Assembly: GCA_003331565.1 (NCBI GenBank)
Contig: QOPE01000004.1
Coordinates: forward strand, 1-35,760
DNA: 35,760 nt
From: SAR86 cluster bacterium
Lineage (GTDB): Bacteria > Pseudomonadota > Gammaproteobacteria > Magnimaribacterales > D2472
Reading direction: 5' to 3'
Positions 5,082 to 35,382 of the stretch are shown here, piece by piece. The number at the start of each line of letters is the position of its first letter. The first letter of the stretch is position 1. The notes below the pieces were generated by a model that was not told the origin of the DNA, ran no database searches, and saw only the letters and a program-made list of their open reading frames with translations. The translations under genes and the position numbers were made by a program.

Positions 5082-5915
5082 CTAAATGTTCTCTTTAGAT
5101 ATATCTGACAAAAATTTATATACAGACTGCTTATTATGTCCATAAAGGTCATAAATTAGTTTTGAAGCATCCTTTGTAGAGAGGTATTTCAAAAATTTTT
5201 TTCCCTCCTCCTCAGAAAGAGAGAAATTTTTTACAGAGTCTCTTTTTGAACTAAGTACAATTACAATTTCACCTTTACATGTAATTTCATCATTTTCTAA
5301 TTCTTGAGCAATTTTTTTTAAAGAGCCCCTTTTAATTGATTGGAACTTCTTAGTCATCTCACGACAAATAGCTATTTCACAATTATTACCTAATTTCTGA
5401 TGTAAAAAATTTATGGTTGTTTTTAGTCTTTTTGGGCTCTCAAAAAAAATTGTTGAGCCCTCAAAATTCTCAATTATTGAAATTGCTTTATCTTTTCTAT
5501 TACTTTTTTTTGGAAAAAATCCTTGGAAATTAAATGAGCTAGGGGGGAGCCCAGAATATACCAAGGCAGTGATCACTGAAGAAGCACCTGGCAGCACTTC
5601 AAAAGATATTTTATTCTCTATACATAGCCTGATTAGTGGGAATCCAGGATCAGAAATGATTGGTGTTCCTGCATCCGACATAATTCCTACATCAATACCA
5701 TCAACTAGATATGAGAGTATTTTTTTGGATACCTCATTTTCATTGTGCTCATGAAAAGTTCGAATGGATGGTTTGTCTATTGAAAGATCAGATAAAAGTC
5801 TTGAGGTTTTTCTTGTGTCCTCTGCAAATATATACTTAACTGATTTAATTACTTCAATTGATCGTAAAGAAATATCTTTTGTATTTCCTATTGGCGCAGC
5901 GATAATGTAGAGCAT
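5082..5915 (-). CDS. rsmI: 16S rRNA (cytidine(1402)-2'-O)-methyltransferase RsmI
   Basis: MLYIIAAPIGNTKDISLRSI, AEDTRKTSRLL, DAGTPIISDPGFPLI motifs. Confidence 0.95.
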   Translation of the reverse strand: MLYIIAAPIGNTKDISLRSIEVIKSVKYIFAEDTRKTSRLLSDLSIDKPSIRTFHEHNENEVSKKILSYLVDGIDVGIMSDAGTPIISDPGFPLIRLCIENKISFEVLPGASSVITALVYSGLPPSSFNFQGFFPKKSNRKDKAISIIENFEGSTIFFESPKRLKTTINFLHQKLGNNCEIAICREMTKKFQSIKRGSLKKIAQELENDEITCKGEIVIVLSSKRDSVKNFSLSEEEGKKFLKYLSTKDASKLIYDLYGHNKQSVYKFLSDISKENI

Positions 5916-5938
5916 ATATTGAGTAATTGATTATAAGT

Positions 5939-7027
5939 ATGAAAGATTTTCTTTTAATTATAGTAATTATAATGAGTGCTTGCTCATCACAACAATATTC
6001 TCAAAATTTAATTATTAATTCTGAAGATACATTGGTTAAAAATGAAGCTGGACTTTTCTTTTTTGATCAAAACTTAAGTTATGAAGAAAACAAAAAGATT
6101 TCTGCCTTATTCAGCTACCGAAACATTGGACAAGATGCCAAAGATTTTATTGTAAATATTCAAAATAATAGGAATTTAGAGACTGAAAATAGACAACTTA
6201 TTAGAACCTTATATAACAACATAAATAGGATACAAGCCTCAAAAAAAAGAGTGCAAATAAAGACACCATTTGATCTAGATTCAACAGATGTGTATTTAAG
6301 TGCTTATGAACAACCTATAAAAAATAAACTATTAAGATCTAATCAGCCAGTTACCAATATTCTTTCAAATAAACTTTTGTTTTGCTCAAGCTACTATGAT
6401 GAAATGGACATATCTGTTATTGATAAATTAATTCAAGAAGATAGAGATTTTGTATTAATAACTGATCAAAAAGTTTCAAATTTTCAAATTAATTTAATAA
6501 AAGGAAATATCTTACCTAAAAAAAATTATTTTTATGATCAACAGAATCCACAAGCTTTTGCAGCCGAAGTTTTAGGTATCAAAGAATCTCAAGAAAGATT
6601 TAATGAGATTAAAAGAATTTCTTCTGGTCTGTCCATTGAATTTTTACCAAGAAGAAATTCAAATTTAGAGATTATAATTTTGGATGTAAGCGCTTCTAAT
6701 CTAAAAAGGCTTTTGCCGGCCTTTAATTATAATTACGCCGCGGATTTAAATTACTATAGTACGTCCTCAGCAAACCTCCTATTTAATGATGAGATTGATC
6801 TTAATGATCTTGAAAAGCTATTTGCTCCAATACCAAGACCTGTAGATAGCTATTCAAAAACAAAAGAAATATTTTCAAACAATCATGCAATCATAAGTGA
6901 CACCATCTTAGTAGAGGTTTTAAGACAAATTGGTGTTTCTAAAGCTTTGGTTAACGGTTACTCAGGGATTTTAAAATATACAGGAAGCGGCTGTATTGAA
7001 AGAGATATTCCTCTAACTCAGATTTAA
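5939..7027 (+). CDS. LppC/LpoA-family lipoprotein (short form; PBP1A activator-like)
   Basis: Divergent from rsmI, as lpoA is; lipobox IIMSAC; C-terminal segment LKRLLPAFNYNYAADLNYYSTSS...LVNGYSGILKYTGSGCIERDIPL resembles the LpoA C-terminal domain. The ORF track begins at a TTG (5927); ATG 5939 is the likelier start. Confidence 0.7.
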   Translation: MKDFLLIIVIIMSACSSQQYSQNLIINSEDTLVKNEAGLFFFDQNLSYEENKKISALFSYRNIGQDAKDFIVNIQNNRNLETENRQLIRTLYNNINRIQASKKRVQIKTPFDLDSTDVYLSAYEQPIKNKLLRSNQPVTNILSNKLLFCSSYYDEMDISVIDKLIQEDRDFVLITDQKVSNFQINLIKGNILPKKNYFYDQQNPQAFAAEVLGIKESQERFNEIKRISSGLSIEFLPRRNSNLEIIILDVSASNLKRLLPAFNYNYAADLNYYSTSSANLLFNDEIDLNDLEKLFAPIPRPVDSYSKTKEIFSNNHAIISDTILVEVLRQIGVSKALVNGYSGILKYTGSGCIERDIPLTQI

Positions 7028-28381: not shown

Positions 28382-29986
28382 TTACTCCATTAGATGTTCT
28401 TTATACTGCTCTCTAAGCTCTACTTTTAATAATTTACCAGTTGCTCCATGAGGTAATTCCTCAACCTTGATAATATCATCTGGCAACCACCACTTTGCCA
28501 CTTTATCTGCAAGAAACTCATTAATTGAATCTTTATCTAGATCACCCTTACTAATCACCAGAAGAATCGGTCTTTCATCCCATTTTGGATGCGGTACTCC
28601 AACCACGCATGCTTCTTCGACATCTGGATGTCCAACAGCAGCATTTTCAAGATCAATGGAGCTGATCCATTCCCCGCCACTCTTAATTACATCTTTTGAT
28701 CTGTCCATTATCTGCATGCAGCCATCTGGGAAGATTTTTGCAACATCTCCAGTATCAAACCATCCCTCATCATCAACTGCTGGTGAATCAGATTTGAAGT
28801 AACTCTCTATGATCCATGGTCCTCTGACCAATAATGCGCCCTGTGCTAATCCGTCTCTAGCAAGCTCATTGTTAGCATCATCTACAATCTTTATTTCTAC
28901 TCCAAAAAGTGGATAGCCCTGTTTAGTTTGCAATTCATATCTCTCTTCATCTGGTAATTCTTTCATTTTCTTTGTTTGAAGATTCATTGTTCCAAGGGGA
29001 CTCATTTCTGTCATGCCCCATCCATGGACTAAAAACGTTTTATGCTTTTCATTAAACTCTTTAATCATTGCAAGAGGTGCAGCTGACCCACCAACCATGA
29101 CGCTATCAACACCTTCGAGAGTTAAGTTTTGTTCAGACAAATAATTTAATAATCCAAGCCAAACAGTGGGCACTCCCATAAGAATATTTGGATTTTCTGC
29201 ACTTATAAGTTCAAATAATGAAGCTCCGTCAAGCGCTTGGCCGGGCAGAATTAATTTACAGCCAGTCATCAAAGCTGCATAAGGTGTCCCCCACGCATTC
29301 ACATGAAACATTGGTACAACCGGTAATACCGAGCTAGTGGTGTCAAACCTTAATGCATTTCCTGATGCCCAAGTATGTAGCATAGTGGACCTGTGACTAT
29401 AGAGAACTCCCTTTGGATTACCCGTAGTTCCAGAGGTATAACATAGTGCTGCCGCATCCCCCTCATCCACTTCAACCCAATCTGAAATAGAGTCAGATTG
29501 TTCAACCATTTCATCATAAAAATGTAAATTTTTAATATCAAAATTTATCTCTTTTTTTGGGCCCATGAGAATTATTACTGGCGAGAACTCTAAGTGATCT
29601 TGAACTCCTTCAATAAGTGGTAGAAATGTATCATCAACAAAAACAACTTTATCCTCAGCATGATTAAGAATATAAATCAGTTGCTCTGGGAAAAGCCTTG
29701 GATTTATCGTGTGCAAAACCCCGCCCATTCCGGTTACCCCAAAATAAATCTCAAAGTGCCTAGAATTATTCCATGCAATCGTTGCCACACGATCACCTTT
29801 ACCAACCTTAAGGCTTTGAAGTAATTTAGCAATTTTCCTTGATTGATTTAAACACTCGCCAGTAGTCTTCTTCAAAATTGAATTATCAGTTTCGCGACTG
29901 ACAATTAAAGTATCGCTGGTATACCTTTCAGCATGCTCAATAAGTTTAGGGATCGTTAGATCCATATTCTGCATATTACCTTTCAT
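28382..29986 (-). CDS. Acyl-CoA synthetase (AMP-forming), AlkK/DmdB-like
   Basis: AMP-binding motif [53 protein letters not shown]. Confidence 0.88.
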
Positions 29987-30040: not shown

Positions 30041-31084
30041 TTAGCTTTTTAATCTTAAGCGCTTATCCAATAAATATTTTAGATCGGGCTTATTTTTTAA
30101 AACAAATCTCAGAAAGTGTAGATAAGGATAAAGCTCAAGTTTAATTTCCATGGATGAGTTCCATAACACCTTATCGATTATCTTTATATCTTCATCTATA
30201 TCACCAATTCGCCCTTCAAATTTAAAATAATGCAAGATATCAATCATTTCATTTGGTAAATGTTTTTTTAAGATTGATTTGAAGTCTTCATTGACCTTAC
30301 CCATTCCAGATGAAAATAATTCAAGTAATAGAATATCAAGATTTACCTTACCAGTAGGATTAATCATTACACCGTAAATATTCTTTGGGTTCTTAACAAA
30401 TGGGTTATAGGCATCAATGGTAACTCTAGGCTCACAGTAATCTGATGCATAAAAGTTATCCCAAATTATGAGATCTTGATTAAATCTTTCCTTAATTTCT
30501 GAAATATATTCAAGGTCATAGCTTTTTGAAACCACATTCTCTCCGGTCCAGAAAAAAGGAACCTGATATTTCATTCTTGAAAAAAGTTCATTTAAGTATT
30601 GGCAATCTATGGCATCTGTTTTAGATAATTGATCAGAGTATATTTGGGGGACAATGTATAGCTTTATTTCAGGAAAATCATGTACAACTTTATTTAAAAT
30701 TTCTGCATGCTCCTTCCCTTTTTGTTTTGTGGCTTCAAATGAAATGTCGTCGAATAGAATGCATAAGCTTTTGATACCCAGATCAAAAATAGCTTGGATT
30801 TTATTATTAAGTATTTTCTGGTCAACTGACTCGCTCACAAACCCAGGTGAAATTCCAAAAATTAATTCAATGTTTAAAGATTTTGCATATTCAAAAAATG
30901 AGCTCAAATTCAATAGATACTCATCAGAATAATCTTTTGCCCATTCCAGTCTATGAAATGGATCTTCCTTTGGACAGTAAAAGTATGAGTTGAGATTCAA
31001 GGCAGATAAAGATTTAAGAATTTTTAGCCTTTGATTCCAATCTAGTAAAGAACCGTAGTAACCTTCTATGTACCCTGTAAGCAT
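30041..31084 (-). CDS. GH84 (O-GlcNAcase/hyaluronidase-like) beta-N-acetylglucosaminidase, catalytic domain only, no signal peptide
   Basis: GYIEGYYGSLLDWNQRL, LNSYFYCPKEDPFHRLEW, ELIFGISPG, LCILFDDI (Asp-Asp pair), PFFWTGENVVSK, IIWDNFYASDY, YGVMINP align by eye with human OGA catalytic-domain motifs. Confidence 0.85.
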   Translation of the reverse strand: MLTGYIEGYYGSLLDWNQRLKILKSLSALNLNSYFYCPKEDPFHRLEWAKDYSDEYLLNLSSFFEYAKSLNIELIFGISPGFVSESVDQKILNNKIQAIFDLGIKSLCILFDDISFEATKQKGKEHAEILNKVVHDFPEIKLYIVPQIYSDQLSKTDAIDCQYLNELFSRMKYQVPFFWTGENVVSKSYDLEYISEIKERFNQDLIIWDNFYASDYCEPRVTIDAYNPFVKNPKNIYGVMINPTGKVNLDILLLELFSSGMGKVNEDFKSILKKHLPNEMIDILHYFKFEGRIGDIDEDIKIIDKVLWNSSMEIKLELYPYLHFLRFVLKNKPDLKYLLDKRLRLKS

Positions 31085-31809
31085 TATTTTTTACATATAA
31101 AACACTCTTTATCTTTATTAATGAGCGTTTGATTAGTTTTTAAAGTCATTCCATCTATCCTATATAAGAAATTTTCCTTTGTGAATTTATCCAAGATTAT
31201 TCTTATGGTCATCATTGCAACTATTGAGCTTACATATGACAACACTGGAGTAAGAATTCCTATCTCATCACATGAATCCTCATTAATATTTGTGTTCCTT
31301 GGAAAAATACATTCGTAACAGGGGCTGTTGGCATAATTTAGGAATGCTGCGGCGTGACCTGTTACTCCTGATGCTAGACCCATGACTAAAGGGATATTCT
31401 TTTCAACACAAACCTCATTAATGTTATATCTAGTTTTAAAGTTATCAGAACAGTCAATTATCAAATCATAATTTGGTATTTGTTCAAACAGATCTTTTTC
31501 TTCTAGAAATTTTTCAATAATCGAAATGTTAGTTTGAGGGTAGTGATCTTCTAACTTAGACTTCAAAACTCTGGCTTTACCTTGACCAATACATTTTTCA
31601 TTAAATAAGAACTGTCGGTGAAGGTTTTTGTATTCGATTAAATCTCCATCGGCAATATCAAAAGTTGTTAATCCTGAACCGCATAATGAGGTTACTAAGG
31701 GATGAGCCAATCCGCCAGCTCCAATTAAAAGTATTTGTTTTGAATTGAGTTCATCAACTAAAGTTTCATTAAAACCACTTAGCTGAGCTGCTGTTTCCCA
31801 GAAATTCAT
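31084..31809 (-). CDS. ThiF/MoeB/HesA-family adenylyltransferase
   Basis: LLIGAGGLAHPLVTSLCGSG, HRQFLF, DCSDNFKTRYNINEVC, two CxxC pairs (CYEC, CFIC); after prmC. Confidence 0.88.
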   Translation of the reverse strand: MNFWETAAQLSGFNETLVDELNSKQILLIGAGGLAHPLVTSLCGSGLTTFDIADGDLIEYKNLHRQFLFNEKCIGQGKARVLKSKLEDHYPQTNISIIEKFLEEKDLFEQIPNYDLIIDCSDNFKTRYNINEVCVEKNIPLVMGLASGVTGHAAAFLNYANSPCYECIFPRNTNINEDSCDEIGILTPVLSYVSSIVAMMTIRIILDKFTKENFLYRIDGMTLKTNQTLINKDKECFICKK

Positions 31810-31815
31810 TCTGAC

Positions 31816-32646
31816 TTAGGTCCCTAGCACCAAACATCTAGGTATTTTTTGATAATCAATAATGCTATCAATAACCCTTAAGTTAACATTAGTTGCAAGA
31901 TCAACTAAGTCTCTATGCTGATCATATCCATGCTCAACAATTAAAAAACCATCCTTTTTTAACATTGACTTAGACTGTGAAAATATTTCTTCAAAACACT
32001 CAATTCCAGTATCTCCGGATACAAGGGCATTTTTGGGCTCCCATTGCAAAGAATTTAGGTGAGCATCTGATGATCTAAGATAAGGAGGATTAGCCAAAAT
32101 AATATCAATAGAATTTCCTTGAAAACAGTTAAGCCAATCCGATTGAATTAAATATAAGTTCTTGCAATCCAATTCTAACTGATTTTGTTGTGCTATTTTT
32201 AATGCGCTAAACGATTTATCAATACCGAACACTTTTGAAGAAGAAAACTTTTTAGCTGCGGTTATTCCAATACAACCTGAGCCTGTCCCTGCATCAACGA
32301 TAACGCTTTTTGAGCCAACACTTTCTATAAGATAGTCAATAATTAGCTCAGTCTCAGGTCTTGGAATTAAAACATCATAATTAACATGGAATTCGATACC
32401 ATAAAAATTGGTCTTGCCTAAAATATAATCCACTGGCATTTCTTGAAGATAATTTCTGAAGAAAACTTCATCGATAAATGACTTAGATTGATTATCAATC
32501 TTTTGATCAATTGGAGACTCAATCGGATATTTAAGAATACCTTTGAAATTCAAAAAGATGTTTAAGTCTTTTTGTATTTCGGGGAAATCTTCTTTATAAG
32601 CCTGACACTTTTTAAAAATAAGCTCTTTATTCTTGTTGGCTTCCAT
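31816..32646 (-). CDS. prmC: Release factor glutamine methyltransferase PrmC
   Basis: VLIPRPETELIID, VDAGTGSGCIGI, ILANPPYL. Confidence 0.96.
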   Translation of the reverse strand: MEANKNKELIFKKCQAYKEDFPEIQKDLNIFLNFKGILKYPIESPIDQKIDNQSKSFIDEVFFRNYLQEMPVDYILGKTNFYGIEFHVNYDVLIPRPETELIIDYLIESVGSKSVIVDAGTGSGCIGITAAKKFSSSKVFGIDKSFSALKIAQQNQLELDCKNLYLIQSDWLNCFQGNSIDIILANPPYLRSSDAHLNSLQWEPKNALVSGDTGIECFEEIFSQSKSMLKKDGFLIVEHGYDQHRDLVDLATNVNLRVIDSIIDYQKIPRCLVLGT

Positions 32647-33730
32647 CTGTTTCTAAATCTGCTAATTGGGCTAGTTGATGCTCTGTCAATAAAGCGCTCG
32701 AAATGTCTTTGATGTCTCCATCCATGACCTGATCAAGGTTGTGTTGAGTCAATTTAATTCTGTGATCAGTGATTCTGCCTTGTGGGAAATTGTAGGTTCT
32801 AATCTTTTCACTTCTATCACCTGTGCCAACAAGAATCTTACGTTCATCTGCTATGCTTTGAGCCTGCTGCTCCTCCTCCATAGCTTTTAATTTACTGGAC
32901 AAAAGTGTCATAGCTTTTGCTTTATTCTTATGCTGTGACCTGTCATCTTGGCACTCAACAACGAGACCAGTAGGAAGATGCGTCAACCTTATGGCGGAGT
33001 CAGTCTTATTAACATGTTGGCCTCCAGCACCTGAAGCTCTAAATGTATCCACTCTAAGGTCATTTTTATCAATTTCTACTTCTTCAACCTCATCTGCTAC
33101 TGGCAATACAGCAACAGTTACAGTTGAAGTATGAATCCTGCCCTGCGATTCCGTTTCTGGAACTCTTTGAACTCGATGAACTCCTGATTCGAACTTTAAG
33201 TATTTATAAACCCCATCTCCATCTATCTTCATAACTGCTTCTTTTGTACCTGCCGGTTCAGAAACTTTATTAGTCATAAGCTCAAATTTCCAGCCTTCTC
33301 TTTCACAAAATCTTGAGTAAAGACGCAATAAATCCGATGCAAAAATTGCAGCTTCGTCACCGCCTGCTCCAGCTCTAATCTCCAGGTATGCAGCACCATC
33401 ATCAGCGTTGTCTTTTGGAAGTAATAACAACTTGAGGTCTTTTTCAATTATCTCAATGCTTGATTCGAGGTCTTCGATTTCTTGTTTTGCTAGTTCAATA
33501 ATCTCTCTATCCTCAAGATCAAGCATTTCTTTTGATTCCTGAATGGATTGAAGGGAATGATTATAATTTCCATATAATTCAACAACTGGTGTGATTTCAG
33601 AGTACTCTTTATTGAGTGAAGTAAATTTTGAAATATCCTCAGTGGCGCCTTCACTGGATAACTGGCCCTCAAGATCCTTTTTTCTCAATACCAAAGAGTT
33701 AAGCTTATTTAATACAGACTCAGGCAACAT
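32627..33730 (-). CDS. prfA: Peptide chain release factor 1
   Basis: GAGGQHVNKTDSAIRLTHLPTG, RAGAGGDEAAIFA, RSEKIRTYNFPQGRITDHRI. Confidence 0.98.
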   Translation of the reverse strand: MLPESVLNKLNSLVLRKKDLEGQLSSEGATEDISKFTSLNKEYSEITPVVELYGNYNHSLQSIQESKEMLDLEDREIIELAKQEIEDLESSIEIIEKDLKLLLLPKDNADDGAAYLEIRAGAGGDEAAIFASDLLRLYSRFCEREGWKFELMTNKVSEPAGTKEAVMKIDGDGVYKYLKFESGVHRVQRVPETESQGRIHTSTVTVAVLPVADEVEEVEIDKNDLRVDTFRASGAGGQHVNKTDSAIRLTHLPTGLVVECQDDRSQHKNKAKAMTLLSSKLKAMEEEQQAQSIADERKILVGTGDRSEKIRTYNFPQGRITDHRIKLTQHNLDQVMDGDIKDISSALLTEHQLAQLADLETDGSQQE

Positions 33731-34940
33731 CGATGATCTCCCTAATCATAGATCTAAGTGCATAACTTTCAATATCATTTATGTTTTTTGGTAATTTTAT
33801 TTCTACATCATTGATTTCATTAAGTGCTTTGACGGGATCATTAGAATTTAAAAGTTTTGTTTTGAAATCCTCAGTTGCACCTTGAATTAATTTTGTAAGA
33901 GCTGAGTAAAGTTCTTTACGTGAAACTTTTTCCTTTAGCCCCTCATCATTTAAGGAACATAAGTCATTGATAAGTACTTTTGCTCTCTTAGCTTCAGATT
34001 CTCTAGCTCTTAAATTTTCATTACTAAAAGACTCTATGTCTTCAAGCGAGAAAAGATAAACTTGCTCAATATTTTTAATCAAAGACTCTGCATTCCTAGG
34101 TACTCCAAGATCAATAACAACGAGTGGTTTATTTTTTCTATAAGCGCAAATCTTTTCGATCAATCCCTTGCCGATAAAAGGTAAATCCGTAGATATTGAT
34201 GAAATGATGATGTCTTGTCCTAATAATAATTGGTCAAGCTTGTTCAGAGGCCTAGACGAGAGACTTATATTATTTCCAAGACTAATTTTTTTAGGAGTTC
34301 TATTTGCAAATGTTAGATTTTGGAATCCTGCATTTACTAAAGAGTTCAAAACTCCTGAAGCAACCTCACCAGCTCCAATTGTAATTATGTTTTGATCCGA
34401 AGGATTTTCAAAGATTTCATCGAAAACATTCAATACTAATGAAGAAATAGATACAGGATTATGATCAATTTTTGTATTTGACCTTACTTGTTTAGCAATC
34501 TTTATTGCTGCATCCGTGTACATTGATAACATACGTTTATTAAGGCCGATATTTAAGTACAACTCATTGGCTTTTTTGAATTGGCCAAATATTTCTTTCT
34601 CACCTATTATTCTTGACTCAATACCTGATGCAACTGAACACATATGCTTGAATGCTGCTATTCCAGAGAATTGATAAAAGTTTTTTGTTATATCTAACTC
34701 ACAGCCTAAATATTTATAAATTGATTGAAAAAATTGTTGATGGGAATCCTCATCTCTGCAATAAGAATAAACCTCAGTTCGATTGCACGTTGATAGAACA
34801 AAGATACTATCTATTTCGCCAGCAAACTTTGTTTCTAAAAGATTCATCATATAACTATAATGGTCATCATTTATGACAAAAGATTCCCGCATTTCTAAAT
34901 TTGCAGTTTTATGGCTAATTCCAAATAGCTTTAGTTCCAT
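33720..34940 (-). CDS. hemA: Glutamyl-tRNA reductase
   Basis: GISHKTANLEMRE, LSTCNRTEVYSY, GEKEIFGQFKKA, NRTPKK. Confidence 0.97.
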   Translation of the reverse strand: MELKLFGISHKTANLEMRESFVINDDHYSYMMNLLETKFAGEIDSIFVLSTCNRTEVYSYCRDEDSHQQFFQSIYKYLGCELDITKNFYQFSGIAAFKHMCSVASGIESRIIGEKEIFGQFKKANELYLNIGLNKRMLSMYTDAAIKIAKQVRSNTKIDHNPVSISSLVLNVFDEIFENPSDQNIITIGAGEVASGVLNSLVNAGFQNLTFANRTPKKISLGNNISLSSRPLNKLDQLLLGQDIIISSISTDLPFIGKGLIEKICAYRKNKPLVVIDLGVPRNAESLIKNIEQVYLFSLEDIESFSNENLRARESEAKRAKVLINDLCSLNDEGLKEKVSRKELYSALTKLIQGATEDFKTKLLNSNDPVKALNEINDVEIKLPKNINDIESYALRSMIREIIDVA

Positions 34941-35382
34941 TTTTCAATATTTAACAATTTTTATTATTTTTTTGCTTTCTTCATGTGCAACATTTAATGC
35001 TGACAAATATATAAATTATCAAGGTAAAGTTGAGATTAGCTATAACAAAGAGATATTAAGATCAAATATGCTCATAAAGTACACAAATAATGAATTAATT
35101 ATACAACTTTATAGGCCATTAATTGGTACCCTTTTTGAATATAATATTAAATTCAATGAAAATTTTATTTTTCAGGAAAACTTTTTTAATTATTTAGAAC
35201 AAGATGTGCTTATTGAGCTAGACAAAATGAATATTATTTCAAACACAAGGAGCTGCATGATTCATAAAAAATTAGTTATGACTGATGGCTATACATGTAA
35301 ATATAATGAAGGGAAAATAACGTTTAAAATTTCAACATTGAATCTTGAAGCAAACGGATTTCTAAGAAATGTCTCTCTCTAA
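34873..35382 (+). CDS. lolB: Outer-membrane lipoprotein LolB-like (start uncertain)
   Basis: Hydrophobic leader with lipobox FLLSSC; small lipoprotein directly upstream of ispE and divergent from hemA, as lolB is. ATG 34873 overlaps hemA by 68 bp; the only later start before the signal sequence that I find is a non-canonical ATT. Confidence 0.7.
   Translation: MTKDSRISKFAVLWLIPNSFSSIFQYLTIFIIFLLSSCATFNADKYINYQGKVEISYNKEILRSNMLIKYTNNELIIQLYRPLIGTLFEYNIKFNENFIFQENFFNYLEQDVLIELDKMNIISNTRSCMIHKKLVMTDGYTCKYNEGKITFKISTLNLEANGFLRNVSL

Follow-up and report, generated by a model that had tools for sequence, protein, structure and literature searches.

The window, meaning the whole 35,760 nt stretch of contig QOPE01000004.1 from a SAR86 cluster bacterium, carries genes in the order hemA-prfA-prmC-moeB (ThiF family)-GH84-acyl-CoA ligase-maoC. 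The features referred to below are as follows.

33720..34940 (-), hemA, first gene of the operon (ORF; conserved synteny)
32627..33730 (-), prfA, operon neighbour, used as a tree marker (ORF; conserved synteny)
31816..32646 (-), prmC, operon neighbour (TIGR03534, above its cut-off)
31084..31809 (-), moeB/ThiF-family gene, upstream of GH84 (PF00899, E=1e-53)
30041..31084 (-), GH84 β-N-acetylglucosaminidase gene, 347 aa, proposed replacement of NagZ (PF07555, orthologues, AlphaFold2 model, Foldseek)
30970..31067 (-), GYIEGYYG ... YFYCPKED, sugar-binding start of the GH84 barrel, with invariant E7, G8, P38 and K39 (58-sequence alignment)
30746..30751 (-), codons of the catalytic pair Asp112-Asp113 (LFDDI), invariant in 58 relatives
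28382..29986 (-), acyl-CoA ligase gene, conserved 3' neighbour of GH84 (PF00501; conserved synteny)

The TAA stop of moeB and the ATG start of GH84 overlap as TAATG; therefore, GH84 belongs to the hemA-prfA-prmC-moeB operon, downstream of which an earlier note on this DNA had correctly placed it. The name moeB used in that note holds as far as the ThiF family, but the product falls below the curated MoeB cut-offs. A functional tie between GH84 and MoeB/ThiF was considered and rejected, moeB being absent beside GH84 in several relatives. The acyl-CoA ligase is possibly DMSP-related, because its nearest model is 3-(methylthio)propionyl-CoA ligase (NF005426, 700 bits vs. a cut-off of 822). Its identity among SAR86 genera ranges over 50-82%, a far wider spread than its neighbours show, and this hints that the gene has been replaced. 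Several SAR86 genera have a SelO-nitroreductase-like pair between prmC and the acyl-CoA ligase (L055:7030-9178, L167:12782-14891, L171:14013-16125, and L176:2278-4416), with SelO confirmed by Pfam in L055 only. Between hemA and ispE the window has a 169-aa lipoprotein-like ORF (34873-35382, positive strand) that matches no Pfam or NCBIfam model; lolB is presumably the usual gene at this position, and the ORF is probably a highly diverged LolB.

PF07555 (NAGidase/GH84) is the sole Pfam match of the 347-aa protein, covering residues 4-246 (E=2e-51, 175 bits vs. a cut-off of 25), and no GH3 domain with the NagZ motif KHFPG(H/N)GxxxxD(S/T)H was found in it. The protein is a member of glycoside hydrolase family 84, as had been read from its active-site motifs, and is predicted to act as a β-N-acetylglucosaminidase. 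K39, D112, D113, Y149, W208, N210, D215, and N242 are invariant in a 58-sequence GH84 alignment; the equivalents lining the active site of human O-GlcNAcase (OGA) we take to be, in that enzyme's numbering, K98, Y219, W278, N280, D285, and N313. The LFDDI pair aligns with D174/D175, the catalytic pair of human OGA (PMC4263850). In SAR86 family f3 (L148:6508-7563(+) and L149:6157-7212(+)) the GYYG near the beginning of the barrel, conserved elsewhere, is GYYS or GFYN, with the catalytic residues still invariant.

Among solved structures, human OGA is nearest to the SAR86 protein (E=3e-30), followed by other GH84s. A (β/α)8 barrel like that of OGA was confirmed in an AlphaFold2 model (mean pLDDT 92.4) by Foldseek, with TM ~0.8 to the structures of human OGA, TtOGA, and OgOGA. 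Approximately 100 C-terminal residues are modelled as helices and stretch the OGA match beyond the barrel; the description of the protein as a bare catalytic domain needs correcting to that extent. No export signal is seen in the reading frame or the model. The first strand of the barrel begins as early as residue 2, which leaves no room for a signal peptide at the N-terminus and rules out an ordinary export signal, and the enzyme is apparently cytosolic, in agreement with what had been proposed.

Characterised GH84 enzymes resemble the SAR86 protein to differing degrees. Human OGA has the family, fold, and active-site residues in common with it, at ~26% identity over the barrel; the SAR86 enzyme differs in having no acetyltransferase-like domain, a shorter helical part, no OGT partner, and another predicted substrate. 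OgOGA of Oceanicola granulosus (PDB 2xsa) has long served as a model for human OGA and is, among solved structures, the one nearest to the SAR116 enzyme (E=3e-35). It is a bacterial GH84 that likewise has its barrel at the very start, then a helical part, but is 447 residues long. TtOGA of Thermobaculum terrenum is an intracellular bacterial GH84 with a barrel and helical bundle (PMC4683255), whose own genome, unlike those of the SAR86 relatives, has an OGT partner. NagJ of Clostridium perfringens and BT_4395 of Bacteroides thetaiotaomicron have the GH84 catalytic domain within larger multidomain proteins (solved chains of ~590-740 residues), whereas the SAR86 enzyme opens with the barrel and lacks a signal peptide.

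GH84 orthologues occur in 39 of 61 SAR86-order genomes, nearly always between prmC(-moeB) and the acyl-CoA ligase-maoC pair; for SAR86 this is an ordinary setting. One subgroup has the gene elsewhere in the genome (L036, L037, L039, and L060). Its shared position in families f1, f2, f3, and f4 is an argument for GH84 being ancestral in the order. Outside SAR86 the gene is rare, being found in 10 of 369 evenly drawn Gammaproteobacteria (three of the 10 are SAR86) and 11 of 385 Alphaproteobacteria. The alphaproteobacterial order SAR116 has it in 78 of 121 genomes. In one SAR116 genome (G070, L061, ~5192-6385) GH84 is split over several frames with internal stops, either a pseudogene or a sequencing error.

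OGT (GT41, PF13844) was detected in none of the 61 SAR86-order genomes by a search with positive controls, the window's own genome (0.80 Mb) being 59% complete; the absence first seen in the window thus extends to its relatives. This bears on the first of three roles that had been suggested for the enzyme, the removal of O-GlcNAc from cytosolic proteins, which would here have to be modified by an unrecognised transferase. Such a role has in its favour the cytosolic location, the closeness of human OGA among solved structures, and the in vitro activity of bacterial GH84s on O-GlcNAc proteins (PMC4263850, PMC4683255). It is disfavoured because GT41 is missing from all 61 relatives, and it leaves unexplained both the exclusion of NagZ and the clustering with AmpG, AnmK, and MurQ described below; a true O-GlcNAcase is, on balance, extremely improbable.

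A GH3 search of the 61 genomes found NagZ in none of the 39 with GH84 and in 19 of the 22 without (a count that includes G023, a partial frame). Genomes with neither are G003 (70% complete), G025, and G035 (short GH3 fragment only). Short GH3s of ~340 aa are restricted to genera g4, g5, g6, g8, and g9, exactly those without GH84. All nine short-GH3 loci read carry the NagZ motif KHFPGHGGxxxDSH, and the one scanned is NagZ by NCBIfam NF003740 (446 bits vs. a cut-off of 207). The raw Fisher p for the exclusion across the 61 genomes, kinship ignored, is 5e-13. On a marker tree of prfA, gatB, gatA, and prmC from 29 SAR86-order genomes there are four changes of GH84/NagZ state (bootstrap range 4-4), each in opposite directions; all four independent pairs are opposite, for which the sign test alone gives only p=0.125. 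GH84-bearing g2 is sister to NagZ-bearing g5, and GH84-bearing SAR86B to NagZ-bearing g6.

The longer GH3s of ~640 aa (L075-L079, from SAR86 genomes of several genera) were considered as a hidden NagZ, the B. subtilis-type NagZ being of similar length, and were rejected. All five read carry KHFPGGGPQ..LDxHL rather than the NagZ motif, and the one scanned scored 54 on the NagZ model, against a cut-off of 207. The nearest curated models are β-glucosidase-like and below cut-off, and the full-length proteins open with a hydrophobic stretch. They occur in both NagZ and GH84 genomes and therefore cannot explain the exclusion pattern.

Sites empty of one or the other gene are visible within SAR86. 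NagZ-bearing G010, G017, G018, G030, and G014 have a GH84-free hemA-prfA-prmC ... acs-maoC-gatBAC-mreB block. In G014 the prmC-acs gap is ~100 bp. In G010, prmC is followed by SelO, nitroreductase, and acs, where GH84-bearing L055 reads prmC-GH84-SelO-nitroreductase-acs. Conversely, GH84-bearing G007 (genus g2) has the neighbours of the g5 nagZ, namely a cupin gene, a 388-aa gene, and an enoyl-CoA hydratase gene, together with nagZ absent; a nagZ-cupin-ligase neighbourhood is common to g4, g5, and g6. Loci sought by position gave no match in G021, G009, and G016 and no such stretch in G020 and G028, and G027 likewise yielded nothing.

Could the exclusion lack functional meaning and reflect only incomplete assemblies or common descent? 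Many of the genomes are single-cell or metagenome assemblies, only four independent pairs are available within SAR86, and the tree markers lie near GH84, so that linked recombination could affect the marker tree, though not the empty-site evidence. However, both empty sites are seen inside continuous contigs, GH84 and NagZ are never together in the 61 genomes, 34 of which are at least 90% complete, and the pattern recurs in SAR116 and in the gammaproteobacterial family f148. An artefact is thus very unlikely. The simplest reading of the exclusion is that a SAR86 ancestor, its state inferred, had both GH84 and nagZ and that one of the two was retained in its descendants, as would be expected of functionally redundant genes.

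The remainder of the recycling pathway is in place. AnmK is present in 58 of the 61 SAR86-order genomes and AmpG-family permeases in 56, GH84-only genomes included; GH84 is thus accompanied by AmpG and AnmK and is found where NagZ is lacking. AnmK uses the anhMurNAc released by NagZ. With importer and kinase present and NagZ absent, the pathway has a hole at the glycosidase step, which a cytosolic GlcNAc-ase fits. In SAR86 itself GH84 is not beside recycling genes; the AnmK gene of the window's genome adjoins an M23-type peptidase gene and tyrS.

The link to recycling is visible in the gene neighbourhoods of other lineages. NagZ above cut-off was found in none of 121 SAR116 genomes (one partial match, 145 bits), and the GH84 cluster there reads AmpG-YkuD-MurQ-AnmK-PIG-L-GH84, including in the cultured 'Ca. 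Puniceispirillum marinum' IMCC1322 (L143). At SAR116 locus L142, GH84 also has an M19 dipeptidase and an Amidase_2 protein nearby. In many SAR116 genomes the PIG-L/BshB1-like deacetylase gene (PF02585) separates anmK from GH84 and is read from the opposite strand (L048:5250-5939(-), L143:6315-7004(-), and equivalents); its product may deacetylate the GlcNAc that is set free, or serve a different pathway. GH84 was not matched in 43 of the 121 SAR116 genomes, and NagZ is missing from almost all of these as well; there, the step may be missing, unassembled, or otherwise done. In f148, which has no NagZ at 98-100% completeness, the gene orders are AmpG-AnmK-GH84 (G445) and murI-AmpG-GH84 (G540). 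A further peptidoglycan link is found in the NagZ-less gammaproteobacterium G349, where a GH84 of another branch directly follows mltG-tmk-holB (L132:1-3514(-)). The alphaproteobacterium G823 keeps NagZ, and its GH84 sits with AnmK, AmpG, MurQ, and a GlcNAc kinase-like gene. Among GH84-free controls, NagZ scored above cut-off in 14 of 14 Gammaproteobacteria, and a NagZ-model match of at least 190 bits was found in nine of 10 Alphaproteobacteria.

These neighbourhoods also weigh on a second alternative, that GH84 scavenges imported chito-oligosaccharides or other GlcNAc oligosaccharides and that the loss of NagZ was incidental. Marine bacteria meet chitin, the GH84 family is exo-acting on varied GlcNAc glycosides, and the PIG-L deacetylase of the SAR116 clusters could serve GlcNAc use. 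Against this, no chitin genes were seen among the neighbours read, which are AnmK, MurQ, AmpG, and murI; the exclusion of NagZ in independent lineages would be a coincidence, and nothing would supply AnmK with anhMurNAc. Scavenging is accordingly judged improbable, if somewhat less so than the other two alternatives.

In a GH84 tree, a quick one with an arbitrary root and a long branch for G234, the genes of SAR86, SAR116, f148, and G234 group on one side (SH-aLRT 90), with no NagZ found alongside GH84 in any of them. On the other side, human OGA and other bacterial GH84s come from a mixture of NagZ-positive and NagZ-negative genomes. Some other GH84 genomes (G405, G453, G558, G823, and G891) keep NagZ, and the GH84s of all five are on another branch than that of SAR86. 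The f148 genes are nested among those of SAR116, which suggests horizontal transfer. A eukaryotic origin of the SAR86 gene is supported neither by this tree nor by the conserved synteny; "Eukaryote-like", as the gene had first been described, is misleading: most of the SAR86 order has inherited the gene at one and the same locus, and its clade is a bacterial one, shared with SAR116 and other NagZ-less Gammaproteobacteria and separate from human OGA.

Taken together, the absence of OGT, the near-universality of AnmK and AmpG, the exclusion of NagZ, and the recycling clusters indicate cytosolic cleavage of GlcNAc-anhMurNAc(-peptides) as the most likely activity of GH84. The replacement of NagZ, offered in the earlier note as one of three roles, is now strongly supported, and from phyletic pattern and genomic context it is highly probable that the SAR86 enzyme does the NagZ step of peptidoglycan recycling. 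The putative pathway would run as follows. AmpG would import GlcNAc-1,6-anhydroMurNAc(-peptide) turnover fragments, and GH84 would split them into GlcNAc and anhMurNAc(-peptide), by means of the Asp112/Asp113 pair with neighbouring-group participation of the 2-acetamido group. AnmK would then phosphorylate anhMurNAc, and MurQ, where present, would convert the product onward. By analogy with the family, catalysis should be substrate-assisted, with retention (PMC3920638, PMC4263850).

NagZ (GH3, NF003740) is a cytosolic exo-β-N-acetylglucosaminidase in the same AmpG/AnmK company, and the SAR86 enzyme, from its predicted activity, would act at the same step, the two excluding each other phylogenetically. 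The SAR86 enzyme differs in being GH84 rather than GH3, in having no KHFPGHG motif, and in the mechanism expected of its family, since GH84 uses substrate-assisted catalysis with an Asp pair whereas NagZ forms a covalent glycosyl-enzyme (PMC3920638, PMC4263850). In most SAR86, throughout SAR116, and in one or more additional families of Gammaproteobacteria, GH84 has most likely taken the place of the GH3-family NagZ as a non-orthologous replacement. What is new would be a variant of a known pathway carried out by a known family, GH84 for NagZ; no account of such a replacement was found in the open-licence full texts searched. It is a more speculative and rather doubtful proposition that peptidoglycan recycling was the original, widespread role of cytosolic bacterial GH84s, perhaps including OgOGA, and that the eukaryotic O-GlcNAcase descended from such a cell-wall-recycling hydrolase.

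The proposed role gives the puzzling bacterial "O-GlcNAcases" a concrete and testable function, in that a large clade of them would be assigned to a known pathway, and the open question of what they do becomes a direct assay. It would also close the gap that the lack of NagZ leaves in SAR86 and SAR116, both of them abundant groups of marine bacteria. If it is true, OGA inhibitors such as Thiamet-G should block cell-wall recycling in SAR86 and SAR116, and NagZ-selective inhibitors should not.
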